Below, piece by piece: positions 1 through 20,500 of a stretch of 64,000 bases of DNA. Numbering within the stretch: position 1 is the first letter of the stretch; each line of letters opens with the position of its first letter. The notes below the pieces were generated by a model, which was given only the letters and a program-made list of their open reading frames with translations, made no database searches and was not told where the DNA came from. The DNA lies in assembly GCF_003465825.1 (NCBI RefSeq), contig NZ_QSBV01000001.1:62001-126000 (forward strand), given 5' to 3'. Origin of the DNA: Collinsella sp. AF02-46-1. Lineage in GTDB: Bacteria; Actinomycetota; Coriobacteriia; Coriobacteriales; Coriobacteriaceae. A program made the translations under genes and the position numbers.

Positions 1-167
1 GCGACGGCGCGCGGCGAGGGGCCTGCCGGATTCACGTTCACCGAGAAGTCAATGAGGTCGGAGGCGTCCCCTTCGCAAGCGATGCCAAGCGATTGCGTGC
101 TACCCCCATGCGCACGGGCGCGCAGGATTCCCCCGGCAGCCCGGGGCGCGGCGTGGTCTTCCCTCAT
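1..167 (-). CDS. cobD: Threonine-phosphate decarboxylase, N-terminal part (truncated by window edge)
   Basis: Only the first 55 or so residues lie in the window. They read MREDHAAPRAAGGILRARAH and continue with a GG motif, then DFSVNVNP near residue 42. The HGG and DFS-N-NP signatures are typical of the PLP-dependent L-threonine-O-3-phosphate decarboxylase CobD (CobC of aerobic producers), which makes the aminopropanol-phosphate arm attached by CbiB. The ATG at 167 overlaps the TGA stop of cbiB (ATGA), so it is translationally coupled as the last visible gene of the operon. A HisC-like aminotransferase is the alternative, but the operon position favours CobD. The PLP lysine lies outside the window. 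Confidence 0.78.
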   Translation of the reverse strand, partial: MREDHAAPRAAGGILRARAHGGSTQSLGIACEGDASDLIDFSVNVNPAGPSPRAV

Positions 168-3448: not shown

Positions 3449-4587
3449 TTCACGGCCTCGAAATGCTCGTAAGCAGCCATGCCAGTCGCCGTGAACGTCT
3501 TCCCATCCCGGTATACGCGCAGCGCCGAATCCAGAAGGGGCAGATACGCCATGGCGCCCGCGCCCTCGCCCAAGTGCATGCCTGCGTCGAGGGGTGCCTT
3601 TATGCCGAGCTCGAGAAGGAGCTCCTGGCTTGCGGGTTCGCTTGATGCGTGGGTGCCCACGAGGTAGCCCAAGGCGTTGGGGCACAGGCGCGCCGCGCAC
3701 AGAGCCGCCGTGCAGGATATGACCCCGTCGAGGAGCGCCGGCGCCTTCGAGGCCGCGGCCCCCAGGTAGAAGCCGCACATCGCCGCGATGTCGAAGCCGC
3801 CCACCTTCGAGAGCACGTCGATCGGGTCGGCGGGATCGGGCGAGTTCGCGTCGATAGCGCGCTCGACCACGTCGCGCTTGCGCGCGAGCGAGGCGTCCGA
3901 GAGCCCCGCGCCGCGCCCGACGAGGCTCCGCGCGTCCGCCCGGATGAGCACTGCGGCCACCGCCGCCGAGGTGGTCGTGTTGCCGATGCCCATCTCGCCC
4001 GCGGCGAGAAGGCGCACGCCGGCGCGGGCAAGCCCGCACGCGACGGCGATTCCGACCTCGATCGCGCGCACGGCCCCATCTCGAGACATAGCGGGGCCGT
4101 GCGCGATGTTGCCACTCCCCCGCCGCACGTTCGCGCGCACCATGCGCGCGTCTTCTATGCCCCGGGCCATACCCACGTCGACGGGCACGACCTCGGCACC
4201 CGCGAACGCCGCCATGCGGCAGGCGCTCGTGGCCCCCTCGCACATGTTGCGCGCGACGGCTCGCGTCACGTCTTGCCCGCTTTGCGACACGCCTTCGGCA
4301 ACGATCCCGTTGTCGGAGAAGAATACCGCGAGCGCACGGGGAAACTCGGCCACCTCGGCGCTCCCCTGAGCTGCGGCGATACACGCGACGGCGTCTTCAA
4401 AGTCGCCCAATCCCCCCAAGGGGTGCGCGATGGAGTCCCACGCGGCGTACGCGGCGGCGCGGGCGCACTCGTCTGCGGGCTCGATCCGGGAGAGCGTGGC
4501 TTCGAGCACGGCGCCCGGCGCCGACGAGAACGCGCGCTCGACTTCCTCGCGGATGCAGGCAAGCGCGGTTTCGGTTGCTTCAGCCAT
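3445..4587 (-). CDS. cobT: Nicotinate-nucleotide--dimethylbenzimidazole phosphoribosyltransferase
   Basis: 380 residues. CobT activates the lower ligand base by transferring phosphoribose from nicotinate mononucleotide. Recognisable segments are VFFSDNGIVAEGVSQSG, then GSGNIAHGPAM, LLAAGEMGIGNTTTSAAV and the C-terminal LHLGEGAGA. The last contains the glutamate that acts as general base in the family (EGAGA). The start at 4587 was chosen over a much longer upstream reading frame because it fits family length and follows a purine-rich stretch (GGAGACGG). It overlaps the end of cbiA by 8 bases. Confidence 0.94.
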   Translation of the reverse strand: MAEATETALACIREEVERAFSSAPGAVLEATLSRIEPADECARAAAYAAWDSIAHPLGGLGDFEDAVACIAAAQGSAEVAEFPRALAVFFSDNGIVAEGVSQSGQDVTRAVARNMCEGATSACRMAAFAGAEVVPVDVGMARGIEDARMVRANVRRGSGNIAHGPAMSRDGAVRAIEVGIAVACGLARAGVRLLAAGEMGIGNTTTSAAVAAVLIRADARSLVGRGAGLSDASLARKRDVVERAIDANSPDPADPIDVLSKVGGFDIAAMCGFYLGAAASKAPALLDGVISCTAALCAARLCPNALGYLVGTHASSEPASQELLLELGIKAPLDAGMHLGEGAGAMAYLPLLDSALRVYRDGKTFTATGMAAYEHFEAVK

Positions 4588-5962
4588 GCCGTCTCCTCTC
4601 TGCAAACGACGCTGCGGCAGACGCGAACGCGCGCGCAACGTCGGGGTTCGCAGGATAGTACACATGCGGGAAGCCCGCAACCAGGGACGGGGTGGTCGAC
4701 ATGCACGGCCAGCCCTTGTCGCGCCGGGGCTTCTGCGCCCAGAAGTCGCCGCCCGGGCAGGTGGACTGCCAGTAGTGGAACTCGTGCGCGCGGATGCGTG
4801 TGCCGCGCGGCCCGTAGAGCCCGTCGCGTTGGGAAGTGAGCTCCACGTACCCGAAATGGGACAGCCTTCCCCCATTCTCGCTTGCGCCCTCAAGGGCGCC
4901 CGCAACAGGCCAGCGCCGCCCCTCGCTATCGGCGATTTCGCGCTGCAGGTACAGAAACCCACCGCATTCGGCGACCGTCGGCATGCCGGATTCCACCGCG
5001 CGCCGCACCGCCTCGCGCATCGGCGCGTTCTCGGAGAGCTGCCGCGCATGGAGCTCCGGGTAGCCGCCCCCCAGATAGAGGGCGCTTGTCCCCCGGGGCA
5101 ACTCGTTATCACACAGGGGGCTGAAAAAGGCCAGCTCGCAACCCAGGTCCTCGAGCGCGCGCAGGTTCTCCTCGTAGTAGAACGAGAACGCCTCGTCACG
5201 CGCGACGGCGACGATGGGCCGCGCTCCCGCGATCGGCTCCAACCGGTAAGGTTCCTCGCGGATATCGGGTGCCGTCACCGCTATTTCGAGCAAGCGGTCG
5301 ACGTCGACGCTCTTTTCCACCAGCTCGGCCATCTTGTCGATGCGCGCGGAGAGCTGCTCGACCTCGTCGGCGGTCACAAGCCCCAGATGCCGGCTTTCGA
5401 GCGAGAACGCCTCGTCGGCGGGGATATTCCCCAAAACCGCGACGCCCGTGTGCTTCTCGATCGCAGGCGCCGCGTAGGCGCAGGCAGCGGCGCTCGTCTT
5501 GTTCAGCACGACGCCGCGCACGTTCGCACAAGGCAGGAACTCGGCAATGCCGCGGATTACGGCGGCGAGCGATAAAGACGCCCCGCGCCCGTTCACCACT
5601 AAAACGACCGGCGTTTCCGTGTCGCGCGCAACCTGGTAGCTGCTCGCGTCGGCCACACCGGGCGCCATGCCGTCGTAGAAGCCCATAACCCCCTCGAGCA
5701 CCGCGACATCCGCGCCCGCGGCGCCGCGTGCGAGCAGGGCGCGCAGCGTCGGGGCGTCGGTGAAGAAGCCGTCTAAATTGCCCGAGCGCGCACCCACGAC
5801 GCGGCGATGAAAGAGCGGGTCAATGTAGTCGGGTCCGCATTTGAAGGCCGCGCATGCAAGGCCGCGACGCGCGAGCGCGCGCAGGAGCGCGCACGTGACG
5901 ACCGTCTTGCCGCTCCCGCTCGAGGGCGCAGCGACCATGAAGCGCGGGATGGACGTGCTCAC
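4580..5962 (-). CDS. cbiA: Cobyrinic acid a,c-diamide synthase
   Basis: 460 residues. The N-terminal dethiobiotin-synthetase-like ATPase domain has its P-loop at residues 13-21 (SSGSGKTVV) and the KCGPDYIDP signature. The C-terminal class I glutamine amidotransferase domain has the nucleophile in PTVAECGGFLYL and the closing histidine in AHEFHYW. CbiA amidates the a and c side chains of (cobalt-)cobyrinic acid. Translation starts at GTG (5962), overlapping the cbiET stop as GTGA. The protein is full-length. CbiP (CobQ), the related enzyme for the remaining amidations, is not in the window. Confidence 0.95.
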   Translation of the reverse strand: MSTSIPRFMVAAPSSGSGKTVVTCALLRALARRGLACAAFKCGPDYIDPLFHRRVVGARSGNLDGFFTDAPTLRALLARGAAGADVAVLEGVMGFYDGMAPGVADASSYQVARDTETPVVLVVNGRGASLSLAAVIRGIAEFLPCANVRGVVLNKTSAAACAYAAPAIEKHTGVAVLGNIPADEAFSLESRHLGLVTADEVEQLSARIDKMAELVEKSVDVDRLLEIAVTAPDIREEPYRLEPIAGARPIVAVARDEAFSFYYEENLRALEDLGCELAFFSPLCDNELPRGTSALYLGGGYPELHARQLSENAPMREAVRRAVESGMPTVAECGGFLYLQREIADSEGRRWPVAGALEGASENGGRLSHFGYVELTSQRDGLYGPRGTRIRAHEFHYWQSTCPGGDFWAQKPRRDKGWPCMSTTPSLVAGFPHVYYPANPDVARAFASAAASFAERRRHG

Positions 5963-7431
5963 TGGGCGCCGCCTTCCCCACCTGCGGCGTTGCAGTTAGC
6001 AAGCGAGACCACCTCAACGGATGGTTTCCCCTCGGCAGAGGGGTCCTCCCCGACAGGTGACTCAACAAGCGCCCCGACATCGGCAAGCTCCTCGGCATCC
6101 GCGCCCGCACCACGCGCGCTGACGAGGAACACGGGGTTTTGCGCCTTCATAAGATGGTGCGAGCCTACAGCCTCGGCGCGGGCGGCCGAAACCTGGCACG
6201 CCTCGAACTCCTTAAAGCGCGAACCCGAGAGGAGCGCGCACGCCTCGGTGAGCGTCTCAACGGTGACGCATGGCACGCACAGGCGAACCTGCGAGTTCTT
6301 CTCGAGCGCCGCCTCCACGATGGAGGGAAGCTCGCCCGCGCTCCCGCCGACGAACACGGCGTCGGGGACGGGCAGTTTCGCGAGCGCTTCGGGGGCGACA
6401 CCGGGGACCGCATGCACGTTGCCGCACCCGAATGCATCCGCGTTCTCTCGGATGAGCCGCACGCCGGCCGCGTTGCGCTCGACCGCCCATACCGACCCCG
6501 CTCGCGCGACGAGCGCCGCCTCGATCGACACGCTCCCCGTGCCGGCGCCGACATCCCACACGGTGTCGGTCGCGGTAAGGCGCAGCTTCGCGAGCGCGAC
6601 GGCGCGCACCTCCTGCTTGGTCATGGGAACGTCGCCGCGGATGAAGAGCTCGTCGGGAATGCCCGAGGAAGCGTACGGCCAGCGGGAGCTCGCGGCGCGG
6701 GATGCGCCCGCAGAGTCCGCCGCGAAAGAAGCCGCCGCGGGCGCAGACGCGCCGGCCGGCGCCTCGGAGGCTGCGCTAGAGCCCGCAGGCGACCCGGCGC
6801 AGCCTGCGAACTCGATAAGCATCACGTTCAAGTCGTCGAACGTCTGACCTGCGATTTCACTTGCGGTCGCGCAGGTGATGCGCTCGTCGGGGTACGACAG
6901 GCGCTCGGCCACCGTCACGCGCGCGTCCGCGAAGCCCGCCTGCACAAGCTCGCCCGAAAGCCGCGAGGGGTCTTCCCCGCCCGACGTGGCGAGGAAGAGC
7001 TCACCTGCGCGCTCGGCCTCGGCCACGATGTCGCACGCCACGCCGTGAGCGCTCGCGAAGCGCCAATCCTGCCATGGACGCGCGAGGCGCGCGGCGAGAT
7101 ACGACGCTGAGCTTATGCCGGGAATGACGCGCACGTCCACCCGCGCGTCGCCGGAGAGCGCCTCCACCAGGCGGCGCGCGCCGCTGAACAGCCCCACATC
7201 GCCCGTCATCACGACCACGGCGCGCTGCCACGACGCCGCATCAGTGAGCGCGGCGACGATGTCCGCCGTCTTCACGAGCTCGCATCTCACCACGTCGGGC
7301 GGCACGTCGATGCCGACAAGCGCGCGATGAGCGCCGATGACCACGTCGGCGATGTCGATCGCGTCGAGCGCCGCACGCGAGAGCAAGTCGGGGTTTCCGG
7401 GCCCCGCCCCGATGATCGTTACCTTTCGCAT
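5959..7431 (-). CDS. cbiET: Bifunctional cobalt-precorrin-7 C5-methyltransferase / C15-methyltransferase (decarboxylating)
   Basis: 490 residues joining CbiE and CbiT, as in CobL of aerobic producers. Residues 1-205 are a tetrapyrrole methylase (VTIIGAGPGNPDLLS at the start, VVVMTGDVGLFSGA in the middle). A long alanine/serine-rich linker of about 50 residues follows (around 208-255). From about 265 the CbiT domain shows MTKQEVRAVALAKL and the SAM-binding WDVGAGTGSVSIEAA. The C-terminal 40 residues are low complexity. The ATG at 7431 lies inside the end of cobJ (13-base overlap), suggesting translational coupling. Together the two activities methylate C5 and C15 and remove the C12 acetate carboxyl. 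Confidence 0.94.
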   Translation of the reverse strand: MRKVTIIGAGPGNPDLLSRAALDAIDIADVVIGAHRALVGIDVPPDVVRCELVKTADIVAALTDAASWQRAVVVMTGDVGLFSGARRLVEALSGDARVDVRVIPGISSASYLAARLARPWQDWRFASAHGVACDIVAEAERAGELFLATSGGEDPSRLSGELVQAGFADARVTVAERLSYPDERITCATASEIAGQTFDDLNVMLIEFAGCAGSPAGSSAASEAPAGASAPAAASFAADSAGASRAASSRWPYASSGIPDELFIRGDVPMTKQEVRAVALAKLRLTATDTVWDVGAGTGSVSIEAALVARAGSVWAVERNAAGVRLIRENADAFGCGNVHAVPGVAPEALAKLPVPDAVFVGGSAGELPSIVEAALEKNSQVRLCVPCVTVETLTEACALLSGSRFKEFEACQVSAARAEAVGSHHLMKAQNPVFLVSARGAGADAEELADVGALVESPVGEDPSAEGKPSVEVVSLANCNAAGGEGGAQ

Positions 7432-8162
7432 GGAATCTCCCGATACCCGCGCGGCGTGACCATACGGCCGCCTACGCGCTTCGTGTCCGCGTTGCCGACG
7501 AACACGGTGGTGAACATGTCGGCGTCGAACTCCCCCAGCTCGGAGAGCCTGCACATGCCCGACTGCTGCCCCTCGCGCCCGATGTTGCGTACCCAGCCGC
7601 AGAGCGTGTCGGGGGCCTTCCATTCGAGCATAATCTTCGCCGCGCGCGAGAGCCTGTCGGCGCGCTTTCTGCTGCGCGGGTTGTACAAACAGATGCAGAA
7701 GTCGGCGCTCGCCACGGCAGCGAGCCTGCGCTCGATGACCTCCCACGGCGTGAGCAGGTCGGAGAGCGACACGACCGCGAAGTCGTGGGCAAGCGGGGCG
7801 CCGAGCACCGCCGACCCGCTCTGAGCCGCGGTGGCCCCGGCGATAACTTCCACGTCTACATCGGGGTAGTCCTCCGCAAGCTCCAGCACGGGGCTCGCCA
7901 TGCCGTACACGCCCGCGTCACCGCTGCACACGAGCGCCACGGCTTCTCCGCTCTGCGCGCGCGAAAGCGCCAGGCGGCACCGTTCGACCTCGTGCATCAT
8001 CGGCGTCGCGAGATGCGCCGCGTCGGGCACGGCGGCGAGCGCGAGCTCCACGTATTTCGTGTACCCCACAACGATGTCGGCCGCCTCGAGCGCGCGCCGA
8101 GCCGCAATCGTCATGCCGTCGGGGCCGCCCGGGCCAATCCCCACCACGAAGAGCTTTCCCAT
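7419..8162 (-). CDS. cbiH: Cobalt-precorrin-3 C17-methyltransferase
   Basis: 247 residues, a single tetrapyrrole methylase domain. The N-terminal VVGIGPGGPDGMT and the GDAGVYGMASPV segment, followed by EVIAGATAAQSGSAVLGAPL, are characteristic of CbiH/CobJ, which performs methylation at C17 with ring contraction. FCICLYNPRSRKRAD is another family motif. Two adjacent start codons exist (GTG at 8165, ATG at 8162); the ATG has better spacing from an AGGAG ribosome-binding site and overlaps the cbiG stop by one base. No N- or C-terminal fusion is present. Confidence 0.94.
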   Translation of the reverse strand: MGKLFVVGIGPGGPDGMTIAARRALEAADIVVGYTKYVELALAAVPDAAHLATPMMHEVERCRLALSRAQSGEAVALVCSGDAGVYGMASPVLELAEDYPDVDVEVIAGATAAQSGSAVLGAPLAHDFAVVSLSDLLTPWEVIERRLAAVASADFCICLYNPRSRKRADRLSRAAKIMLEWKAPDTLCGWVRNIGREGQQSGMCRLSELGEFDADMFTTVFVGNADTKRVGGRMVTPRGYREIPCER

Positions 8163-9295
8163 CACCGCTCCTTAAACGAAAGTTCGATAGTTACCTTGGA
8201 AAACGCGACGGTCACGCCGCCGTGAGCGAGCTTCGGGAAGAAAAGTTTGCCCCCGCCCGCGAGCGCCGCGCGCTCGCACACGTTGTCGACCCCCACCGTC
8301 GCGCGCACGAAATCAGATGGCGAAACGCTGCCTTCGACCTGCGACAACTCCTCTGCGGAATACGTCGCGAGCGGGATACTGCGCGCGTGGCAGAAGGCGA
8401 GCAGACCCTCCTCGCGCGCCTTAACGTCGATCGTCGCCGCCTCGCGCACGGCCGAAGGCGAGATGCCCGCCTGCCCGCACGCGAGAAGAAACGCCTCCCC
8501 GATCGCTTCGGTGCACGCACCGCGACGGCACCCTATGCCCGCAACGATGCAGGGTAAGACAAGGTGAAGCGGCTCGGGCGCAGGCGCCTGCGCCCGCACG
8601 CCCGCCGGCTTCCCCGTCACACCGGCGGGCACGACCTCGCCCGTTGTCTCCGCCGCGCGAACGGACGCACCTGCATTCGCGCCAGCGAACGGCGACACGA
8701 CGATATCGGCCCGAGCGCGGTCGGACGCAATGTCAACCCCCTCAGGCGGCTGTCCCGAAATCGGCATGTCGGAATAGAGCGCCACGCGCCCGCCCGAAAG
8801 CAGCCGCGCCGACACTCGCTTGATAGCCTCGGGATTCGAAACGGCGAGCCCAGCACAGCGCGCCCACGTATCCACCGCCCACACGCCGCGGACGTCGGTC
8901 GCCGTGGTGATGACGGGGATGGCCCCTGCCGCGCGTGCCACAGTTTGCGCAAGCTCGTTCGCACCGCCCAAATGCCCCGACAAAAGCGAGACGGCAAAGC
9001 GCCCCGCCTCGTCGATCACCACAACCGCGGAATCGTTTGCCTTCGAGGCGACATGCGGCGCGATCGCCCGCACGGCGATGCCCGCCGCGCCCACGAACAG
9101 AAGCGCGTCCGACGCTTCCCACGCGAGCGCCGTCCATGCGCGCAGGTCGGCCTTCCCCTCGCCGAACCCGCGCGAAACGGAAACGTTCCAGCCAGAGTCA
9201 TCTTCACCTGTCTGCGCGCAATCGGAAAGCGCGCGTGCGGTGCGCTCCGCCAACGCATACCCCCTCTCAGTGAACGCTATGCAGGAAACCCTCAT
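8162..9295 (-). CDS. cbiG: Cobalt-precorrin-5A hydrolase
   Basis: 377 residues with the three CbiG parts. The N-terminal domain shows LLFVGAAGIAVRAIAPHV and LSGHLGGANELAQTVA. A linker region of about 40 alanine-rich residues (around 215-255) follows. The C-terminal domain starts at VAGIGCRRGACTEAI. CbiG opens the delta-lactone of cobalt-precorrin-5A, releasing acetaldehyde. The ATG at 9295 follows directly on the stop of the upstream methyltransferase gene without overlap. Length and motifs indicate an intact enzyme. Confidence 0.93.
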   Translation of the reverse strand: MRVSCIAFTERGYALAERTARALSDCAQTGEDDSGWNVSVSRGFGEGKADLRAWTALAWEASDALLFVGAAGIAVRAIAPHVASKANDSAVVVIDEAGRFAVSLLSGHLGGANELAQTVARAAGAIPVITTATDVRGVWAVDTWARCAGLAVSNPEAIKRVSARLLSGGRVALYSDMPISGQPPEGVDIASDRARADIVVSPFAGANAGASVRAAETTGEVVPAGVTGKPAGVRAQAPAPEPLHLVLPCIVAGIGCRRGACTEAIGEAFLLACGQAGISPSAVREAATIDVKAREEGLLAFCHARSIPLATYSAEELSQVEGSVSPSDFVRATVGVDNVCERAALAGGGKLFFPKLAHGGVTVAFSKVTIELSFKER

Positions 9296-9985
9296 CTAGC
9301 GCACCACCATCGTCGAGAAGTAGCTGCCCCGATCGGGCACATCGTCGAGCGAGCGGTACACGCGCTCGCCCGGAAGCCCACAGTCCTCTACGAGCTCGGC
9401 ACCGTCGAAGGCACCCTCCTCGCGAAGGATGCGCTTCGTGTCCGCAAGCGAGCGGCGCGCCTTCATGACCACCTTCGTCCCCGGCCAGCCGATTGCGCGG
9501 CGAACGTCATCGTAGCCGCCGGGCACGATGTGCAGAGGCGACGACATCTCGGGCGTGAGGTCGCGCTCGAGCGCCGCGGCGACCGCGCAGAAGCTCGGCA
9601 CGCCGGGAATGGCGCGCGCCTCGAACCCGCGGGCGCGCACGTCGGGCGCTATGCGCTGGAAGGTGGCGTAGATGCTTGGGTCCCCCAGGTTCAGCAGCGC
9701 GACGTCGCGGGCCGCATCCAGGTGCGCGACAAGCTCGCGAACAAGCGAGGCATGCTCGGCCGCGCGGCGCTCGGCGTCGCGCGTCATCGAGAATCGCACG
9801 GGGATCACCGTCTTGCCTGTAAGGTCGACGGCGCCGCGCACAATGTCAAGCGCGACCATGACCCCGTCCGCCGTTTGCGGTGCGGCGATGACCGGACACG
9901 ATTCGATTGTGCGGACGGCCTTGATCGTGAGCAGCTCGGGGTCGCCAGGCCCCGTGCCCACCCCGTACAGCACGCCTTTACTCAT
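9296..9985 (-). CDS. cbiL: Cobalt-factor II C20-methyltransferase
   Basis: 229 residues. The opening VLYGVGTGPGDPELLTIKAV is the CbiL/CobI signature (YGVG-x-GPGDPELLT), with LLNLGDPSIYATF in the SAM/tetrapyrrole pocket and AIPGVPSFCAVAAAL after it. It methylates C20 of cobalt-factor II (or precorrin-2), the first methylation after cobalt insertion. The ATG at 9985 overlaps the end of cbiD by 8 bases. I assign the cobalt-dependent (CbiL) form because the neighbours (cbiD, cbiG, cbiK) belong to the anaerobic route; sequence alone does not separate CbiL from CobI with certainty. Confidence 0.92.
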   Translation of the reverse strand: MSKGVLYGVGTGPGDPELLTIKAVRTIESCPVIAAPQTADGVMVALDIVRGAVDLTGKTVIPVRFSMTRDAERRAAEHASLVRELVAHLDAARDVALLNLGDPSIYATFQRIAPDVRARGFEARAIPGVPSFCAVAAALERDLTPEMSSPLHIVPGGYDDVRRAIGWPGTKVVMKARRSLADTKRILREEGAFDGAELVEDCGLPGERVYRSLDDVPDRGSYFSTMVVR

Positions 9986-11162
9986 ACGTCGCCCCCAATT
10001 CCCCGATAACAGCATCGGCGCCCGACGTGCGGAAAAGCTCGCGGCGCCCGGCGTCGAACACGACCGCGGCGATGTCGCATGCGCCCGCCGCGCGGCGGCG
10101 CAACCTGTCCTCGATTGCCGCAGCGAGCGAGGCGCGCACAGCATCCCCCACGCCGGCGGCCTCGATTACCTCAAGCGCCGTCGTGGTCGTGACCGACGAC
10201 ATGATCTCGTGCACGGTCTTCGCGCCCGCGCCGGCCAAGGCCGCGTGGGCGGCCAGAATCTCCGCGCGGCAGTCGGCGGTACGCGAATGGGTGTCCATGA
10301 TGCCGCCCGCGACCTTCACTAGCTTGCCGATGTGTCCCACAAGAAGGACATTGGTAAATCCCTCGCGAACGCAGCAATCAATCGCATCGCCCACAAAGTT
10401 GGAGATGAAGACCACCGGCGCACCGTTTAGGTGGAAATGCCCCGAGATGAACTGCCCGCCGTAGTTGCCGGGCGTGAGCACGACTCCGCGCCGCCCCATA
10501 GCCGCATGCTGCCGGATCTCGAGCTCGATGCTGTCGCGCAAGGCAGCGAGGCTGCGCGGCTCGACGATGCCCGTCGTACCCAGGATGGAGATGCCGTCCT
10601 CTATCCCCAGGTGCGGGTTGAAGGTCTTTTCGGCAAGGGCAACACCCTCGGGTACCGAAATCGTCACAGCAATATTTCCAGAAAAGCCGTGCGCGGCGCA
10701 CACCTCGCGCACCGCCGAAGTGATCATCGCGCGCGGCGTCGCGTTGATGGCGGCCGCCCCCACCGGCTGCTCAAGCCCGGGCAACGTCACGCGCCCCACG
10801 CCCACGCCGCCATCGACGGAAACTTCCGATTCGCGCGCGGGCACGCCCTTGCTGCCCGCAGCGCCCGTGCCCGGCCCCGCATGTTCCACGAGCGCGTACA
10901 CGAGCACGCCGTCGGTCACATCGGCATCGTCGCCTGCGTCCTTTCGCACGGCGCACTGGGCGCACCCCTCGCCGATGCATACGTCGACCACGTCCGTCTC
11001 GACGGGCAGCCCGCCGGGGGTGACGATCGACACGCGGCCCACGGTCTTTCGTGACAAGAGCATCTCGCAGGCCGCCTTCGCCGCGAGAGCGGCGCAGCTC
11101 CCCGTGGTGTAGCCGCAGCGCAGGCGGGTCGTCCCGGTATATATGTAGTGCTCGAAGGCCAC
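9978..11162 (-). CDS. cbiD: Cobalt-precorrin-5B C1-methyltransferase
   Basis: 394 residues, slightly longer than typical. The N-terminal LRCGYTTGSCAALAAKAA is the CbiD hallmark (GYTTGSCA), followed by VTPGG, INATPRAMI and the ILGTTGIVEPRS and FVGDAIDCC segments. CbiD is specific to the anaerobic (early cobalt insertion) pathway and methylates C1. The best start is GTG at 11162, two bases after the cbiF stop; the open frame continues upstream into cbiF but without family similarity. It is strong evidence for the oxygen-independent pathway in this organism. Confidence 0.93.
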   Translation of the reverse strand: MAFEHYIYTGTTRLRCGYTTGSCAALAAKAACEMLLSRKTVGRVSIVTPGGLPVETDVVDVCIGEGCAQCAVRKDAGDDADVTDGVLVYALVEHAGPGTGAAGSKGVPARESEVSVDGGVGVGRVTLPGLEQPVGAAAINATPRAMITSAVREVCAAHGFSGNIAVTISVPEGVALAEKTFNPHLGIEDGISILGTTGIVEPRSLAALRDSIELEIRQHAAMGRRGVVLTPGNYGGQFISGHFHLNGAPVVFISNFVGDAIDCCVREGFTNVLLVGHIGKLVKVAGGIMDTHSRTADCRAEILAAHAALAGAGAKTVHEIMSSVTTTTALEVIEAAGVGDAVRASLAAAIEDRLRRRAAGACDIAAVVFDAGRRELFRTSGADAVIGELGATYE

Positions 11163-11163
11163 G

Positions 11164-11955
11164 CTAGCTGCTCGCCTTCCGATACCCCGTGGCAAACGAA
11201 GGGTCGTAAAGCTTGCTGCGCTCGTACGACTCCGCTTGCGCGCCGTCGTGCGCAAGCCCGCCGCGAGCTCCGAGCACGCGGCCCACCACCACGAGCGCCG
11301 TGCGGTCGATGCCCTCTCGCGCGCCCGCATCGGCGAGCGTGCCCACTGTGCATCGCACCACGCGCTCCTCAGGCCAGGTCGCCTTATACACGAGCGCCGC
11401 CGGCTCGTCGGAGCTGCGGCCCGCGGCCAAAAGCTCGGCGGAAAGCTCGGCGAGCATACCCGAGCTCAGGAAGATGACCATAGTCGAGCCGCTTTCCGCC
11501 ATGGTGCGCATGCCCTCGCCCGCAGGCATGGGGGTGCGCCCGGAAAGCCGCGTGATCACGACCGACTGGCTGATTCCCGGCAGCGTGTATTCCTGGCGAA
11601 GCGCCGCCGCGGCACCGCAAAAGCTCGACACGCCGGGCACCACCTCGTAGTCCACGCCGCGCGCGTCGAGCGCGTCCATCTGCTCCTGGATGGCGCCGTA
11701 CAGGCACGGGTCGCCCGTGTGCAGGCGCACCACTTCCTCGCCCCGCGCATCTGCCGCGCACATCACGTCGAGCACTTCCTCCAAGGTCATGTGCGCGCTG
11801 TCGTAGACGATGCAGGATTCCTTGCACTCAGCGAGCAGCTCGGGGTTCACAAGGCTCCCCGCCCAAACGACCACGTCGGCCGCGTGCAGAAGGCGCGCCC
11901 CGCGCAGCGTGATAAGGTCGGCGGCGCCAGAGCCTGCGCCAACGATATGAATCAT
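11164..11955 (-). CDS. cbiF: Cobalt-precorrin-4 C11-methyltransferase
   Basis: 263 residues; first gene of the minus-strand corrinoid operon. The N-terminus IHIVGAGSGAADLITLRGAR, the VVWAGSLVNPELL segment, RLHTGDPCLYGAIQEQ and VVPGVSSFCGAAAAL identify CbiF/CobM, which methylates C11. The ATG at 11955 is preceded by a good AAGGGAAGG ribosome-binding site. The leader upstream on this strand (11956-12110) shows no recognisable cobalamin riboswitch, unlike the divergent transcript, so how this operon is regulated is not evident from the sequence. Confidence 0.94.
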   Translation of the reverse strand: MIHIVGAGSGAADLITLRGARLLHAADVVVWAGSLVNPELLAECKESCIVYDSAHMTLEEVLDVMCAADARGEEVVRLHTGDPCLYGAIQEQMDALDARGVDYEVVPGVSSFCGAAAALRQEYTLPGISQSVVITRLSGRTPMPAGEGMRTMAESGSTMVIFLSSGMLAELSAELLAAGRSSDEPAALVYKATWPEERVVRCTVGTLADAGAREGIDRTALVVVGRVLGARGGLAHDGAQAESYERSKLYDPSFATGYRKASS

Positions 11956-12086
11956 CCGAGCCTTCCCTTCCCGTTTCTCATCGCAACCGTTTACGCCGCC
12001 ATTCGCGCAGCGGGCAAAACACGGCGCCTGCGGCAGCAATCGGCGCAAATACGCAGGCAGGAGGCGCAATGCCGCCCGCGCTGGCT

Positions 12087-12115
12087 TTGACACGTTCACA
12101 AGTGCCCACTATCAT
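12087..12115 (+). promoter_or_regulatory. Promoter for the riboswitch-cbiK-transporter transcript
   Basis: TTGACA at 12087-12092 and TATCAT at 12110-12115 are separated by exactly 17 bases, a near-consensus vegetative promoter. Transcription would begin around 12122, about 40 bases before the cobalamin riboswitch. The -10 sits in an 11-base palindrome (ACTATCATAGT), so TATGAT is also present on the opposite strand, but no matching -35 for the cbiF operon is seen at the right distance. Confidence 0.7.
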
Positions 12116-12159
12116 AGTAAAAGTTTCGGCAACGAGCATATGACAATCGGATAAAAGGA

Positions 12160-12295
12160 AATGACCGGCGCGGCGCCTGCACAGCCCGCGCTGGCTTGCG
12201 GAGGGAACCAGGTGGGAATCCTGGGCAAGGGACATTACTGTATAGGACGCGCGGGCGAACCGCCTCGCGCCCCAAGCCAGACTGCTTCGCCTTTT
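12160..12295 (+). promoter_or_regulatory. Cobalamin (B12) riboswitch
   Basis: The conserved core appears in order on the plus strand: GGAGGGAACCAGGTGGGAAT then CCTGGGCAAGGGACATTACT (12200-12239), an arm with paired GCGCGGGCGAAC / CGCCTCGCG, and the closing AAGCCAGACTGC box at 12274-12285. These match the GGGAA-GGTG-AATCC and CTGTA elements of AdoCbl riboswitches. It lies between a promoter at 12087 and the cbiK start at 12414, so high corrinoid should reduce expression of the chelatase and importer. The exact ends are approximate. Confidence 0.87.
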
Positions 12296-12330
12296 CCTCA
12301 CGGCATCGCCGTGGCGTTAGCTCCTTGTGA

Positions 12331-12354
12331 ACCCCGAGGGGTGCGCTTTTCTTT
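12331..12354 (+). terminator. Possible riboswitch expression-platform terminator
   Basis: A short GC hairpin (ACCC-CGAG-GGGT) followed by GCGCTTTTCTTT lies between the riboswitch core and cbiK. It is short for an intrinsic terminator, but its place fits a riboswitch output element. An alternative hairpin, CACGGC-atc-GCCGTG, lies just upstream at about 12299-12313. Confidence 0.4.
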
Positions 12355-12413
12355 CGCTTGTGCCGACAAGCAACTGTCGCCGGGGGACCGGCAAACCGAG
12401 GAAAGGAAAAACC

Positions 12414-13340
12414 ATGTCCGACCAGATGTCACGCCGCGGCTTCATGGGCGCCGCAGCAACCGGAGCCGTCGCGCTCGCCGGAGTCGCGCTCGCGGGCTGC
12501 TCCAACACCTCCGCGAGTTCCGAGAAATCTAGTGAAAAGGAGAAGGCCGCGAAGCCGGTCATCCTCGTCACGAGCTTCGGCACGAGCTACAACGACTCGC
12601 GCCACATCACCATCGGCGCCATCGAAGACGCTATCCGCGAGAAGTACTGGCAGGACTACGACATCCGCCGCGCCTTCACCGCGCAGATCATCATCGACAA
12701 GCTGAAGAAGCGCGACGGCATCACGATCGACAACATGACCGAGGCGCTTGACCGCTGCGTGGAAGACGGCGTGAAGGAAATCGTCGTGCAGCCGACGCAT
12801 CTCATGGCTGGCCTGGAATACGCCGACGTGAAAGACGAGCTCGACAAGTACGCCGACAAGTTCGACAAGATCTCGCTCGGCGACCCGCTGCTCACCTCCG
12901 ACGACGACTACAAAAAGGTGGCCGCAGCCATTAAGGAGAACATGGCGTCCTTCGACGACGGCGAGACGGCGCTGTGCCTCATGGGCCACGGCACCGAAGC
13001 CGATTCCAACGCCGACTATGCCAAGATGCAGGAAGTGTTCAAGAACGAGGGTTTGACGCAGTTCTTCGTCGGCACCGTCGAGGCTGAACCGACCTGCGAG
13101 GATGTTATCGCCGCCGCGAGCGCCGCAGGCTACAAGAAGGCCGTGCTCGCGCCGTTCATGGTGGTCGCGGGCGACCACGCGAACAACGACATGGCAGACG
13201 AGACCGACCCCGACAGCTGGGCTGCGAAGTTCGTGGCCGCAGGCTTCGAAGTGACGTGCCTGCTCCAGGGTCTGGGACAGAACGTCGCGGTCGACGACAT
13301 CTACGTCTCGCACGTGGACGACGCCATCGCCAAGCTGTAA
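12414..13340 (+). CDS. cbiK: Exported sirohydrochlorin cobaltochelatase, Tat lipoprotein
   Basis: 308 residues. The N-terminus has a twin-arginine signal (SRRGFMGAAA, arginines at 7-8), a hydrophobic stretch and a lipobox LAGC with the acylated cysteine at residue 29, so the protein should be exported folded and anchored outside the membrane. From residue 48 the CbiK fold begins (VILVTSFGTSYNDSR). The metal-site histidines expected for CbiK are visible as LMGHGTEA (His192) and VAGDHANND (His255); QPTHLMAGLEY supplies His129 and Glu135. CbiK inserts Co2+ into sirohydrochlorin. The start follows a GAGGAAAGG site. A periplasmic CbiK is known from Desulfovibrio; whether this one feeds synthesis or handles metal or tetrapyrrole uptake is open. 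Confidence 0.88.
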   Translation: MSDQMSRRGFMGAAATGAVALAGVALAGCSNTSASSEKSSEKEKAAKPVILVTSFGTSYNDSRHITIGAIEDAIREKYWQDYDIRRAFTAQIIIDKLKKRDGITIDNMTEALDRCVEDGVKEIVVQPTHLMAGLEYADVKDELDKYADKFDKISLGDPLLTSDDDYKKVAAAIKENMASFDDGETALCLMGHGTEADSNADYAKMQEVFKNEGLTQFFVGTVEAEPTCEDVIAAASAAGYKKAVLAPFMVVAGDHANNDMADETDPDSWAAKFVAAGFEVTCLLQGLGQNVAVDDIYVSHVDDAIAKL

Positions 13341-13348
13341 ACTCGCCG

Positions 13349-13462
13349 CGCACGGGGGCGCCGGTCGCGTCCCCGTGCAACGGGCATGCGCCTTTCCCCG
13401 ACTGACGACGCATGCCCGTTGCATTCGCATCCCGACCGCCCACCGCACGGCGCGGGCGGTCG
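13349..13462 (+). repeat. Three consecutive intercistronic hairpins
   Basis: The gap between cbiK and the small lipoprotein gene is almost entirely inverted repeats: GCACGGGG/CCCCGTGC (13350-13378), a perfect 13-base stem CAACGGGCATGCG (13378-13390 with 13409-13421), and CGACCGCCC/GGGCGGTCG (13433-13441 with 13454-13462). None is followed by a T-run, so they look like mRNA processing or stability structures rather than terminators. Confidence 0.7.
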
Positions 13463-13486
13463 AAGCGATTGAAAGGAACCCCCTCC

Positions 13487-14020
13487 ATGTTGAAGAAAAC
13501 CCTCGTCTTCGCCCTGTCGGCGGCGCTTTGCGCGTTCTCGCTCGCCGGCTGCGCCGGAAATTCAATCGACAGCGCAAAGGCAAGCGATGCCGATTCCCAG
13601 GAAAAGACCGAACAGGCGGCCGATGCGCCCGCGGGCGCAAGCGCTGCCCCCATCACCGCCGACAAGGTGGCCGACGGCACCTATCCAATCACCGTAGATT
13701 CCAGCTCGAACATGTTCAGGATCGTGGACGCCCAGCTCATCGTGGAAAACGGCTCCATGCACTGCGTGATGACGCTTTCCGGCACGGGCTACGGCAAGCT
13801 CTTCATGGGCACGGGCGACGAGGCTGCCGCCGCGAGCGAGGCCGACTTCATCCCCTATGTGGAAAACGCGGAAGGCAAGTACACCTACGACGTGCCCGTT
13901 GATGCGCTCGACGAGGACACCGCCTGTGCCGCGTGGAGTATTAGAAAAGAGCAGTGGTACGACCGCACACTTGTGTTCGAATCCGCCGGCGTCGATCTGC
14001 GCGCCGACGCACTGAAGTAA
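13487..14020 (+). CDS. Small surface lipoprotein of the corrinoid uptake locus
   Basis: 177 residues with a lipoprotein signal: KK-T-LVFALSAALCAFS then LAGC with the cysteine at residue 22. After a low-complexity linker to about residue 60, one soluble domain follows (ADGTYPITVDSSSNMFRIVD through WYDRTLVFESAGVDLRADAL). Its features include a TLSGTGYGKLF segment and YTYDVPVDALDED. The same arrangement of segments recurs in the N-terminal part of the next gene, a substrate-binding protein. No enzyme motif is seen. It is probably an extracellular ligand or metal-capturing accessory of the importer (inference). The start at 13487 is preceded by GAAAGGA. Confidence 0.7.
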   Translation: MLKKTLVFALSAALCAFSLAGCAGNSIDSAKASDADSQEKTEQAADAPAGASAAPITADKVADGTYPITVDSSSNMFRIVDAQLIVENGSMHCVMTLSGTGYGKLFMGTGDEAAAASEADFIPYVENAEGKYTYDVPVDALDEDTACAAWSIRKEQWYDRTLVFESAGVDLRADALK

Positions 14021-14024
14021 CGCC

Positions 14025-15596
14025 ATGCGGTCGATTCTTCCCAAGGGGGAAAACAGGAAGCTCCACAGCATCGCGGCGCGCGCGATCGCCTGCGTTCTCG
14101 TCGCCCTGCTCGCGCTTCCCTTCGCGGGGTGCAGTGCGAGCCCGAACGCGACCGGTGGCACGGCGGGCTCTCAGGAATACACGGTGAGCGTCTCGCTTTC
14201 CGGCGGGTCAGGGCGCGCAAGCATCGCCTCACCCACCACAATTGTGAAGGATGGCGACACCTACACCGCGACCATCACCTGGTCGAGTTCGAACTACGAC
14301 AAGATGACCGTCGACGGCGTGGACTACGCGCCCGTAAACGACGGCGGCAACTCCACGTTCGAGATACCCGTCACGCTCGACGAGGACATCGCCGTGTCGG
14401 CCGAGACCGTCGCCATGTCGACGCCGCACACCATCGACTACACGCTCCACTTCGACTCATCCACCATGAAGGAGAAATCGGGCGACGATGCAAGCGGCGG
14501 CTCCCCTGCGGGAACGGCTTCAAGCGCCGCGGCCGACTTCCACAACGCCGATTTGGGCTGCGGCTGGGAGCCGACGGGAGCGCTTCAGCTTGAATACGCC
14601 GAGCACTTCACTGTCGACGAGTTCGAAGGCGGCCTGCGGCTTATCTGCGTTTCGAACGGGGAGCGCTTCCTCGTGGTGCCGCAAGATGCGAAGGTACCTG
14701 ATGGGTTAAGCTCCGACATCGCGGTCATAAGGCGCCCCGCCGACAAGGTGTACCTCGTGTCGTCGGCGACGATGTGCCTGGTCGACGCGCTCGATGCGAA
14801 CGACAATATCTTAATGTCGGGCACGAAAGCCGACGATTGCTCGGTCGCGGGCTTCAAAAGCGCGCTCGGAAGTGGGGCGATCGCCTACGGCGGCAAGTAC
14901 AGCGCGCCCGACTACGAGCGAATATCGGCCTCGGGCTGCACGCTCGCCATCGAGAACACCATGATCAACCACACGCCCGATGTGAAGGAAAAGCTGCAGA
15001 AGCTCGGGCTCGTCGTGCTCACCGAACAGTCGTCGAGCGAGCCCAAAGCACTCGGGCGCGTCGAGTGGATTAAGCTTTTCGGCGTCCTGTTCGACAAGGA
15101 AGACGAGGCCACGCACCTGTTCAACGAGCAGAAGGCCCGCGTCGAGCAAACGTCGGGGCTCGCGTCGTCAGGTAAAACCGTGGCGTATTTCTACATTAAC
15201 TCGAACGGGGCCGCCGTCACGCGGCGGGCGGGCGACTACGTGGCGCAGATGATCGAGCTTGCAGGCGGCAGCTACGCGCTCGATGACGCGCAGACGGCGT
15301 CGACGTCAGGTTCGTCAGTAACGCTCGAAATGGAGCGCTTCTACGCGACAGCGAAGGATGCCGACATCATCGTCTACAACGGCACCATCGACGAATCGGT
15401 TGCCACCTTGAACGACTTCGTAGGCAAAAACGCGCTATTGTCGCAGTTCAAAGCCGTGAAGAACGGCAACGTCTGGGTCACAAGCGCCGACATGTACCAG
15501 CAGATGACTTCTACCGCCGACATTATCGACGAGCTGCACGGGGCGTTCACCGGCGATGACGCGAGCGACTTCCATTATCTGAGGAAGCTCGGTTAG
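14025..15596 (+). CDS. ABC transporter substrate-binding lipoprotein, BtuF-like, with extra N-terminal domain
   Basis: 523 residues. The lipobox is PFAGC (cysteine near residue 36). Residues about 50-150 form a domain resembling the preceding small lipoprotein (IVKDGDTYTATITW, FEIPVTLDEDIAVSAETVAM). From about 185 to 520 is a class III periplasmic-binding fold of the BtuF/FhuD type: DIAVIRRPADKVYLVSSAT, LVVLTEQSSSEPKALGRVEW, VAYFYINSNGAAVTRRAGDY and VWVTSADMYQQ. It should deliver a corrinoid, tetrapyrrole or iron-complex type ligand to the permease encoded next. Genes on both sides are 4 bases away, so it is in one operon with cbiK. Confidence 0.85.
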   Translation: MRSILPKGENRKLHSIAARAIACVLVALLALPFAGCSASPNATGGTAGSQEYTVSVSLSGGSGRASIASPTTIVKDGDTYTATITWSSSNYDKMTVDGVDYAPVNDGGNSTFEIPVTLDEDIAVSAETVAMSTPHTIDYTLHFDSSTMKEKSGDDASGGSPAGTASSAAADFHNADLGCGWEPTGALQLEYAEHFTVDEFEGGLRLICVSNGERFLVVPQDAKVPDGLSSDIAVIRRPADKVYLVSSATMCLVDALDANDNILMSGTKADDCSVAGFKSALGSGAIAYGGKYSAPDYERISASGCTLAIENTMINHTPDVKEKLQKLGLVVLTEQSSSEPKALGRVEWIKLFGVLFDKEDEATHLFNEQKARVEQTSGLASSGKTVAYFYINSNGAAVTRRAGDYVAQMIELAGGSYALDDAQTASTSGSSVTLEMERFYATAKDADIIVYNGTIDESVATLNDFVGKNALLSQFKAVKNGNVWVTSADMYQQMTSTADIIDELHGAFTGDDASDFHYLRKLG

Positions 15597-15600
15597 CGCC

Positions 15601-16641
15601 ATGAGAAGCCGGCTTTCCATGGCATACGACGAATCGGGGCGCGCCGCGCGGTGTCGCGTCGTGACGGCGCTGCTCGCTGTTGCCCTCATCGTGCTCGTCG
15701 GGGCCAACCTGTGCATCGGGAGCGTGCTCGTGCCCGCAGACCACATCCCCGGCATCCTTTCGGGCGGCGCGGCCAATTCCATGGAAAGCCAGGTCATCTG
15801 GGAGATTCGCCTGCCGCGCGTGCTTTCAGCCGTGCTTCTCGGCGGGGCACTTTCGCTTTCCGGGTTCCTGCTGCAGACGTTTTTCAACAACCCCATCGCC
15901 GACCCGTTCATCTTGGGCGTCTCCTCGGGCGCAAAGTTCGTCGTCGCGCTTACGATGATCGTACTTCTAGGCGCGAACCAGGCCATGTCCTCGCCGGCCA
16001 TGGTGGCCGCAGCGTTTCTGGGCTCGCTTATCACCATCGGCTTCGTGCTCCTCATCGCACGGCGCATAAGTTCCATGGCCATGCTCATCGTGGCGGGCGT
16101 CATGGTGGGATACATCTGCTCGGCGGCGACGAACTTCCTCATCGCCTTCGCCGACGACCAGTCCATCGTGAACCTGCACAACTGGTCTTTGGGTAGCTTC
16201 TCGGGTTCGAGCTGGGACGACATCGCGGTCATCGCGGTCGTGGTGATCACCGTGAGCGCATGCGTATTCGCGATATCGAAGCCCCTTTCCGCCTTCCAGC
16301 TGGGAGAAGCCTACGCGAAAAGCGTCGGCGTGAACGTCGAACGCTTCCGCGTGGTGCTCGTCCTTCTAGCGAGCATGCTCTCCGCCTGCGTGACCGCGTT
16401 CGCTGGTCCGGTGTCGTTCGTAGGCATCGCGGTTCCGCATCTCGTGAAGTCGGCGCTAAAGTCGTCGAAGCCCATCCGCGTGATTCCTGCGTGCTTCTTG
16501 GGAGGCGCCATCTTCTGCGCGGGCTGCGATTTGATCGCGCGCACGCTGTTCTCTCCCGTCGAGCTTTCCATCAGCGCCGTCACCGCCATCTTCGGCGCTC
16601 CGGTGGTTATCGCGCTCATGTTGAAGAAGCGGGTGAGGTAG
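15601..16641 (+). CDS. FecCD-family ABC transporter permease (BtuC-like)
   Basis: 346 residues with about ten hydrophobic segments, the length and layout of BtuC/FecD permeases. Family signatures include WEIRLPRVLSAVLLGGALSL, GVSSGAKFVVAL (GxSSGA) and FVGIAVPHLVK near the C-terminal third, the last being the coupling region that contacts the ATPase. It is preceded by the binding protein and followed immediately by the ATPase, whose ATG abuts the TAG stop. Cargo is inferred as a corrinoid from the riboswitch and neighbours; siderophore and haem permeases share the same fold. Confidence 0.9.
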   Translation: MRSRLSMAYDESGRAARCRVVTALLAVALIVLVGANLCIGSVLVPADHIPGILSGGAANSMESQVIWEIRLPRVLSAVLLGGALSLSGFLLQTFFNNPIADPFILGVSSGAKFVVALTMIVLLGANQAMSSPAMVAAAFLGSLITIGFVLLIARRISSMAMLIVAGVMVGYICSAATNFLIAFADDQSIVNLHNWSLGSFSGSSWDDIAVIAVVVITVSACVFAISKPLSAFQLGEAYAKSVGVNVERFRVVLVLLASMLSACVTAFAGPVSFVGIAVPHLVKSALKSSKPIRVIPACFLGGAIFCAGCDLIARTLFSPVELSISAVTAIFGAPVVIALMLKKRVR

Positions 16642-17958
16642 ATGCGGGAATTCGTGCCGCGGCCCAAAACGCTCGGAGGGGACATTCCATGCTTAGACAG
16701 TCCTGAGCTCGCACGAAAGCGCCAGAAGGCACTTTCGGCTCGTGCGGAACTGCGCGCGGAACGCCTCTTCCGAGCGGAGCCGAACCTCGAAACTACGGTC
16801 GAAACGCAGGCTGACGGAGCGCCGCTTTTCCACATAAGCGACCTGTCGGCGGGCTACGACAAGAAGGTCGTAGTCGGAGGCGTCGATCTGGAGGTTCGCG
16901 CGGGCGACGTCGTGGCGCTCATCGGGCCGAACGGCTCGGGCAAGTCGACCATCTTAAAAACCATCACACGCCATCTGGCACCGCTTGCCGGCGCGGTCGA
17001 GCTCGACGGGCGGGAGATTTCCCGATGGAAGACGGCGGAGTTTGCAAAGAACCTTGCCGTTATGCTGACAGATCGCCCCCGGACCGAGCTCCTCACCTGC
17101 CGCGATGTCGTAGAGGCGGGAAGGCACCCCTACACCGGGCGAATGGGCACACTCTCGCCCGACGACCATAGTCGGGTCGACGAGGCCATGAAAACCGCAC
17201 GTGTGGAAGAGCTCGCCGAGCGCGACTTCATGCAGATAAGCGACGGGCAACGCCAGCGCGTCATACTCGCACGCGCCATCGCGCAGGATCCGCGTGTGCT
17301 CGTGCTCGACGAGCCCACGTCGTATCTCGATATCCGCTACCAGATCGACCTGCTGCGAATACTTCGCCACCTTGCGAAATCGCGGAATGTGGCTGTCATC
17401 ATGTCCATCCACGAACTCGAGCTCGCGCAGAAAAGCGCCGACAAGGTGATTTGCGTGAAGGACGGCCGGGTCTTCCGCGCCGGCGTACCCGAGGACATAT
17501 TCACGCGCGAGACGATTGGCGAGCTCTACGGCCTTCAACATGGCACCTTCAACGAGCGCTTCGGCAGCGTGGAAATTGGACGCCCGCACGGCGATGCGCA
17601 CACGTTCGTCATCGCCGGCGCAGGTACGGGGTCGGCTGTGTTTCGCCAGCTCATCCGGCAGGGCAAGGCGTTCTACACGGGCGTTCTGCACGAAGGGGAC
17701 ATCGACTGCGAGCTAGCGCGCGACCTGGCGGCGGAATGCGTGGCCGAGCGCGCCTTCGAGCCGATCGGGGATAAAACCATAGCCCGCGCCAAAGAGCTCC
17801 TCGTCCACTGCGCGCGCCTTATCGTGTGCCCCGCCGCCTTCGGCACCATTAACGCCCGCAACGCAGAGCTCGTCGAGTTCGCACGCTCGCACGGTATCGA
17901 GGTCATGCGAGCGTGCGAAGGCGCATCGGAGGATTCCCAATTGGGGTGGAAAGGATAA
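16642..17958 (+). CDS. ABC transporter ATPase (BtuD-like) with C-terminal Rossmann-like domain
   Basis: 438 residues, far longer than the usual 250-270. Residues 1-55 are an extra N-terminal stretch. The nucleotide-binding domain follows: Walker A ALIGPNGSGKST (near 95), signature ISDGQRQRVILARAIA, Walker B VLVLDEPTSYLD and the switch histidine in SIHELELA. From about residue 320 a separate domain begins (TFVIAGAGTGSAVFRQLIRQ, GVLHEGDIDCELA, IVCPAAFGTINARNAELVEF) with a glycine-rich nucleotide-binding look. Similar long BtuD-like ATPases occur in corrinoid importers of archaea and bacteria. It is the last gene of the plus-strand operon and ends at the G+C boundary. Confidence 0.88.
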   Translation: MREFVPRPKTLGGDIPCLDSPELARKRQKALSARAELRAERLFRAEPNLETTVETQADGAPLFHISDLSAGYDKKVVVGGVDLEVRAGDVVALIGPNGSGKSTILKTITRHLAPLAGAVELDGREISRWKTAEFAKNLAVMLTDRPRTELLTCRDVVEAGRHPYTGRMGTLSPDDHSRVDEAMKTARVEELAERDFMQISDGQRQRVILARAIAQDPRVLVLDEPTSYLDIRYQIDLLRILRHLAKSRNVAVIMSIHELELAQKSADKVICVKDGRVFRAGVPEDIFTRETIGELYGLQHGTFNERFGSVEIGRPHGDAHTFVIAGAGTGSAVFRQLIRQGKAFYTGVLHEGDIDCELARDLAAECVAERAFEPIGDKTIARAKELLVHCARLIVCPAAFGTINARNAELVEFARSHGIEVMRACEGASEDSQLGWKG

Positions 17959-20401: not shown

Positions 20402-20478
20402 TGGTAGCCCGTACCAGATTCGAACTGGTGATCTCCGCCTTGAGAGGGCGGCGTCCTAAACCGCTAGACGAACGGGCC
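20402..20478 (-). tRNA. tRNA-Glu (anticodon CTC), copy 3
   Basis: 77 bases on the minus strand with the encoded CCA end. The acceptor GGCCCGT pairs with ACGGGCT. The anticodon stem CCGCC/GGCGG encloses the loop CTCTCAA, giving anticodon CTC. The T-arm is ACCAG-TTCGAAT-CTGGT. It is identical to the two copies upstream and is the last of the transcript. Confidence 0.96.
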
Positions 20479-20500
20479 ATAGACCTCAGCAGAAAAGAAG

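Follow-up and report, generated by a model that had tools for sequence, protein, structure and literature searches.

An exported CbiK chelatase with a predicted NEAT-like relay and an ABC importer: a candidate gate for tetrapyrrole salvage in Collinsella

Introduction

The IhtABCDE system of Porphyromonas gingivalis, as outlined in the available part of its description (PMC10913741), combines an exported CbiK-like lipoprotein with a binding protein, a permease and an ATPase and is thought to serve heme iron; in Desulfovibrio, the available text of another source has cbiK-cbiL and btuCDF under a B12 element (PMC545781). Here we analyze a similar set of genes from Collinsella sp. AF02-46-1, contained in a stretch of 64,000 nucleotides (contig NZ_QSBV01000001.1, positions 62,001 to 126,000; hereafter the window). 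Genes for CbiK, a lipoprotein (LP2), a substrate-binding lipoprotein (BP3), a permease and an ATPase form a single run on its plus strand, within positions 12087–17958, and will be called the cassette. B12 synthesis in P. gingivalis is said to have been called an enigma by Roper in 2000.

Shelton et al. defined a class of tetrapyrrole-precursor salvagers and showed dependence on 5-aminolevulinic acid in three species; the accessible portion of their paper also reports P. gingivalis as devoid of the steps to precorrin-2 (PMC6461909). Collinsella aerofaciens figures as a precorrin-2 auxotroph in the available text of a review (PMC8123684). We propose, with moderate confidence, that the cassette serves to salvage a sirohydrochlorin-type tetrapyrrole, feeding B12 synthesis in bacteria that are unable to make the ring. 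The computed basis for this proposal consists of the parts themselves, their export signals, the kept catalytic triad, a predicted NEAT fold, a conserved operon and leader, and the missing early ring genes.

Results

The cbiK product matched the family PF06180 at E 5.4e-79 (265.6 bits, against a cut-off of 26.2), while staying below the cut-off of the NCBIfam equivalog SiroCoChCbiK (227.2 of 400 bits). Its best relative in the PDB was Salmonella CbiK (1qgo, 4e-44), followed by FetB/IhtB (5.9e-38). His192 and His255 align with the two histidines of the Salmonella enzyme, and Glu135 with its conserved Glu. The N-terminus, MSDQMSRRGFMG...VALAGC, contains a twin-arginine (Tat) motif and a lipobox at Cys29. 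A preliminary description of this DNA had named the signal, the lipobox and the two histidines, all of which we find in place, and had read the genes as one operon behind a promoter, an arrangement confirmed here over 12087–17958. We also considered whether a cytoplasmic CbiK might have been misread through start choice. This was rejected, as the sequence offers no start codon between signal and domain, and relatives are anchored by other means.

For comparison we used 58 relatives, 35 of them from the same genus (the assembly of the window itself was not included); loci and genomes are designated below by L and G numbers. The cassette is also found in other Coriobacteriia and in Bacillota, where CbiK is either a lipoprotein or SLH-anchored. 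We considered 35 cassette genomes, namely 13 of the same genus, G038, G045 and 20 reached through named loci. The CbiK N-terminus, read by eye in 34 of these (in G074 the gene is cut at the contig end), resembled a signal peptide at 31 loci; in L097 and L101 it is cut by the end of the locus, and in L019 no signal is visible. The means of anchoring differ. The window, L054 and L080 encode Tat lipoproteins; L055, L091, L099 and L103, among others, Sec lipoproteins; L057 and L059 a Tat signal without a lipobox; and L082–L090 a signal plus SLH repeats, the latter confirmed by Pfam in the three loci scanned (L083, L085 and L086). Such variety of anchors argues, at the level of sequence, that the extracellular position of CbiK is itself under selection.

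Of 23 exported CbiK domains, 22 retain the catalytic Glu/His/His. The exception, L059 (genome G037, without CbiD), encodes a Tat-signalled CbiK in which both histidines are lost, to Trp and Tyr, and which has possibly turned into a binder. In a tree of CbiK sequences, the 23 rows from Actinomycetota and Bacillota form one group (99/97), which includes L019, labelled as exported despite having no visible signal. A lipoprotein CbiK from an Alistipes metagenome-assembled genome (MAG; L104) joins FetB on long branches, a placement flagged as doubtful; its gene lies in a cbi cluster and is flanked by two TonB-dependent receptors, and HemB, HemC and CobA were not found over cut-off in that genome. 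In L094, L099 and L101, tandem CbiK domains occur in a single exported protein, with the triad in both domains of L094 and L099. In L082–L090 a single polypeptide carries SLH repeats and CbiK with an LP2-type domain at its C-terminus, a fusion of chelatase and relay domain.

LP2 matched no Pfam family at E 0.001, and a PDB search with its profile gave a best E of 0.84. Its predicted structure, however, pointed to a NEAT fold in 43 of 50 among the structural matches listed, and the PDB NEAT domains matched by the model were mostly heme-bound. LP2 does not reach the cut-off of the NEAT family PF05031 (13.9 of 32.8 bits; the L103 relative scores 29.2), and two other homologues carry a precomputed PF05031 annotation. 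A relationship to PplA was dropped, the match covering mainly the signal region. The N-terminal domain of BP3 is homologous to the NEAT-like domain of LP2 and is followed by Peripla_BP_2 (5e-31); the best match of the BP3 profile was Lmo2184 (6.5e-9), which we take to be a heme-binding protein. That LP2 has a predicted NEAT fold and that BP3 starts with a related domain is new with respect to the preliminary description. Further proteins containing both NEAT-like domains are encoded at L103:15819-16871, distant from the main run, and at L060:3-875, adjoining a signal-less CbiK.

For the permease and the ATPase, the best NCBIfam models were BtuC and the corrinoid ATPase PRK09536, respectively. 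Both proteins fall short of the equivalog cut-offs (BtuC 210.6 of 334 bits, corrinoid ATPase 244.1 of 537), so that the earlier label 'BtuFCD-like' is loosely apt but not established. The C-terminal extension of the ATPase (about 140 residues) has no Pfam match. From LP2 to the ATPase, the genes are separated by 0–4 bases, and no TonB-dependent receptor is found among the five genes of the run.

The promoter had been called near-consensus, rightly: 11 of 12 positions agree, and the pattern was found once, compared with 0.1 on average (sd 0.4) over 50 shuffles. Whether the leader is an AdoCbl riboswitch, as also claimed, requires a more qualified answer. The segment 12154-12281 scored 15.2 bits with RF00174 (E 0.099), under the gathering score of 31.5, and an Rfam scan of the whole window returned nothing but tRNAs at gathering score. 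On the other hand, the B12 core GGGAA-N(1-6)-GGTGNNANTCC occurs a single time in the window (12203-12221) and in 0 of 100 shuffles, on which ground a chance origin was rejected. The core and its surroundings are kept among divergent Coriobacteriia leaders (37 invariant columns in an alignment of six sequences), where both partners have changed in 10 of 21 predicted pairs; the leader thus displays both the conserved core and the pairing of a cobalamin riboswitch. Since the core is unique in the window, absent from shuffles and kept with its surroundings in divergent Coriobacteriia, we judge from the sequence that the leader in front of cbiK is real and B12-riboswitch-like, albeit below the Rfam threshold.

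Among 24 loci examined, a B12 core or an Rfam match lies upstream of CbiK in 19, looser cores (up to two substitutions) being accepted by eye through the CACTGT-type box that follows. Two of these leaders exceed the gathering score: L055 (RF01689, 41.5 bits) and L095 (RF00174, 49.7 bits). No core was found in L059, L091, L102 and L103; for L101, only 300 bases upstream were available.

Within the genus, a long CbiK is present in 13 of 35 genomes, which are exactly those with CbiD, and each has all five cassette genes. Searches of these 13 for HemB, HemC and CysG-N (HemA, HemL and HemD were not searched) found none of them. CobA was not found over cut-off, the lower matches being other corrin methylases, and there was neither a CbiX outside the CbiK frame nor a second CbiK. 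As a control, the same searches were applied to 14 known genomes: those for CysG-N, HemB, HemC and CobA were positive in 9 to 11, the one for CbiX in 10. All 13 therefore display the profile of a tetrapyrrole-precursor salvager, i.e., late corrin genes without HemB, HemC and CobA, and apparently have no visible route to the ring and no cytoplasmic chelatase candidate. G042, with a signal-less CbiK together with HemB, HemC, CobA, CysG-N and CbiD, represents the classical case.

Extending the count to the 35 cassette genomes, HemB, HemC and CobA are all absent in 26 and all present in seven, whereas G061 has HemB/HemC only and G068 CobA only. CbiD was seen in 23 of the 26 ring-gene-free genomes; in G065, G071 and G073 only other B12 genes lie nearby. 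A second CbiK-family gene occurs in 2 of the 26, as opposed to 4 of the 7 with a full set (Fisher p 0.011, for genomes that are not independent, with 3/7 lacking a second CbiK and with G061 and G068 left out). CbiX candidates in the other cassette-locus genomes all fell within CbiK frames except for two weak matches, in G061 (22.7 bits) and G059 (22.2 bits, with neighbours), which we took as chance.

A related importer occurs in siroheme-type genomes. Five same-genus genomes without CbiD (G009, G017, G018, G023 and G024; loci L020–L024) encode a CbiK fused to the CysG N-terminal domain, without a visible signal, and all five have a homologue of the permease (61–71% identity; in G009 split into two pieces at the ends of contigs), which was not found in the other 17 same-genus genomes at E 1e-40. 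In the three fusion proteins aligned (L020, L021 and L022), Ala or Ser stands in place of the catalytic Glu, and both His are kept. Neither LP2 nor an exported CbiK was found in the five genomes, and their importer has no B12 core nearby; HemB and HemC were not found in the three searched (G009, G017 and G018). Four of the importer loci were scanned with Rfam, with no match at gathering score, a silence that is weak evidence because the leader of the genus itself fails that threshold. The siroheme and cobalamin pathways share sirohydrochlorin and precorrin-2, so that a cargo of this kind would suit both the CbiD-containing and the fusion genomes. The permease may nonetheless import B12 in the latter.

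The coordinates of all features are collected in Table 1. The corrin operon runs divergently from the cassette; the order in which its three TP_methylases are named was assigned from position and similarity. In the nearest genome compared (G001), this operon goes on with a class I/II aminotransferase, a CbiP-type amidotransferase, BtuR, CbiC and CbiJ.

Table 1. Positions of the cassette, its control elements and the neighbouring operon in the window
Feature	Coordinates	Strand	Remarks
Sigma-70-type promoter	12087..12115	+	TTGACA-17-TATCAT; 11/12 consensus positions
Divergent cobalamin-riboswitch-like leader	12154..12300	+	core 12203-12221, then CATTACTGT and AAGCCAGA boxes
Terminator-like hairpin, possible expression platform	12320..12342	+	weak: 1 found, 0.9 expected
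Exported CbiK chelatase	12414..13340	+	Tat signal, lipobox Cys29, Glu135/His192/His255
Lipoprotein LP2	13487..14020	+	predicted NEAT-fold domain, residues ~60-170 (13667-13996)
Substrate-binding lipoprotein BP3	14025..15596	+	residues ~46-150 (14160-14474) NEAT-like, then Peripla_BP_2
FecCD-family permease	15601..16641	+	FecCD 9.5e-82
ABC ATPase	16642..17958	+	ABC_tran 9e-31; C-terminal extension ~140 residues
Divergent corrin operon	164..12099	-	CbiF, CbiD, CbiL, CbiG, CbiH, CbiET, CbiA, CobT, CobU, CobS, CobC-like phosphatase, CbiB

Positions 4066-17941 of the window, comprising the corrin operon and the cassette, show 96.9–98.4% DNA identity to sequences in Collinsella, Ellagibacter, Senegalimassilia, Gordonibacter and one Coriobacteriia MAG; a Collinsella aerofaciens contig (L061) encodes a CbiK 100% identical to that of the window. 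Such near-identity across genera points to the recent transfer of a B12 island. The island matches in L065, L068, L073 and L074 end at 17928-17941, while the Collinsella copies extend past there, and a transposase remnant with an integrase core (rve, PF00665, 8.6e-9) lies on the island edge, at 17976-18212. Farther downstream, at 20405-20676 on the minus strand, three identical tRNA genes occur within 99-base repeats.

Discussion

According to the salvage reading, the cargo would be sirohydrochlorin, or else siroheme or precorrin-2 converted to it. CbiK, held outside the cell by a lipid or wall anchor, would insert cobalt; the NEAT-like domains of LP2 and BP3, judging from their fold, would then hand the cobalt-tetrapyrrole over to BP3's binding domain, for import by the permease and ATPase, as their families suggest. 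In the cytoplasm, CbiL and the other Cbi enzymes would finish the corrin by the established pathway, and the product would presumably switch the operon off through the riboswitch. The preliminary description had suggested that a metal-tetrapyrrole is handled at the surface before uptake. Its interpretation as a whole is partly supported; surface handling itself gains more support than that description could draw on, from the predicted NEAT lipoprotein, from CbiK relatives that are variously anchored and from the lack, in the corrin-making genomes of the genus, of detectable early ring genes or another chelatase of the CbiK/CbiX/CysG kind.

Some observations weigh against the salvage reading. 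The structure searches favour heme carriers no less than carriers of other cargo, and 9 of the 35 cassette genomes retain HemB/HemC and/or CobA. Among the ring-gene-free genomes, G071 and G073 have a second CbiK of about 265 residues, a signal-less length. In Collinsella, 12 of the 13 cassette copies are near-identical and the cassette lies directly next to the cbi operon, so that few independent events are represented; given these copies and a single transferable island, the profile statistics overstate independence. Finally, CbiM, which imports cobalt (or nickel) into the cytoplasm, is present in 12 of the 13 corrin-making Collinsella, against 1 of 7 other Collinsella tested (its neighbourhood in L131 shows no riboswitch at the Rfam gathering score, which the genus's own leader also fails). 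Cobalt can thus probably enter the cytoplasm, making the outside-insertion step less sure than the uptake step, and we put forward obligatory cobalt insertion outside the cell only tentatively, at a little under an even chance.

If cobalt were inserted inside, a metal-free tetrapyrrole would be imported and the Tat-targeted CbiK would fold and work in the cytoplasm before, or without, its export. Tat substrates do fold prior to export, the frequency of CbiM fits, and in the five siroheme-type genomes the same importer family accompanies a CbiK without a visible signal. We nevertheless regard this as unlikely, since a cytoplasmic role does not fit relatives whose only CbiK bears a Sec-type lipoprotein signal or an SLH anchor, and CbiM exceeds the cut-off in 18 of the 35 cassette genomes but not in the other 17.

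The cassette might alternatively be a heme-iron system like Iht or Isd, in which the CbiK-like lipoprotein binds heme or extracts its iron and the NEAT domains relay heme. The mostly heme-bound NEAT domains in the PDB list and the match of BP3 to Lmo2184, a heme-binding protein, agree with this, as does the second-best PDB relative of CbiK, FetB/IhtB, which the available text describes as thought to take iron from heme (PMC10913741). Against it stand the B12-riboswitch cores, the cbi neighbourhood, the co-occurrence with CbiD and the cobaltochelatase triad, kept in 22 of 23 domains; moreover, the sole intact exported CbiK without both histidines sits in a CbiD-less genome, G037. On the strength of the B12-type leader, the cbi linkage and the triad, a heme-only function was set aside as quite improbable. 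The prospects are poorer still for an ordinary corrinoid (BtuFCD) importer beside an incidental CbiK, with a riboswitch that merely regulates B12 uptake. The B12 leader and the best NCBIfam models, though sub-cut-off, would agree with such an importer, which however leaves unexplained the fixed place of CbiK with a NEAT partner over two phyla, its fusion to an LP2-type domain in the SLH proteins and the absence of ring genes. In the siroheme-type genomes, the homologous importers also lack a B12 core. We set this explanation aside on account of the NEAT and CbiK partners, as very improbable.

Salvage through the cassette would account for the source of the ring in Collinsella aerofaciens and other predicted precorrin-2 auxotrophs; the cassette supplies candidate parts for ring entry, making the question testable with purified proteins. 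More generally, though we advance this with reserve and would not yet call it probable, host-associated anaerobes from two or more phyla, with Bacteroidota showing a TonB-linked variant, may use a surface cobaltochelatase to charge scavenged sirohydrochlorin, which a NEAT relay and an ABC importer would bring in as cobalt-sirohydrochlorin, the first intracellular intermediate. If so, their B12 synthesis would depend on siroheme-pathway intermediates of other organisms, and (cobalt-)sirohydrochlorin would join the intermediates exchanged among gut microbes. A re-examination of IhtB, currently filed under heme iron, is also suggested.

Comparison with known systems

The preliminary description saw the pairing of CbiK with an importer as the new part. 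In this respect it had precedents, in Iht (PMC10913741) and in the Desulfovibrio cbiK-cbiL/btuCDF element (PMC545781), as far as the available texts describe them. New are the NEAT relay, the connection with precorrin-2 auxotrophy and the occurrence of surface-anchored CbiK in Gram-positive gut bacteria. The open-licence literature yielded no paper describing a CbiK anchored at the surface or through SLH repeats, none on NEAT plus chelatase plus cobalamin, and none joining the Iht, Desulfovibrio, salvager and auxotroph findings (subscription journals lay mostly outside this search).

Salmonella CbiK (1qgo) shares the family and the catalytic Glu/His/His with the cassette enzyme but is cytoplasmic, whereas the latter is exported and is the sole chelatase candidate. 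CbiK-P of Desulfovibrio vulgaris (PDB 2xvx) is likewise extracytoplasmic, with the triad kept; Lobo is said to have reported in 2008 a second, cytoplasmic CbiK in Desulfovibrio, while none was found in the cassette genomes of the window's genus. Isd-type systems, which are under iron regulation, pass heme from a NEAT lipoprotein to a binding protein and a FecCD permease, an order that the cassette matches through a predicted fold; it departs from them in that LP2 is below the Pfam cut-off and in having a chelatase partner and a B12-type leader. Iht resembles the cassette in its exported CbiK-family lipoprotein, related to that of the window and adjoining a binding protein, permease and ATPase, but it has an outer-membrane TonB receptor, no NEAT domains and a heme/iron assignment, and the accessible part of its description reports no B12 riboswitch (PMC10913741). 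The salvagers of Shelton et al. have, like the cassette genomes, a complete late pathway and lack early ring steps, and the cassette is a candidate for the uptake route that the available text on them does not name (PMC6461909). Set beside these systems, the cassette probably represents surface tetrapyrrole acquisition with a new cargo and an extracellular step of B12 synthesis.

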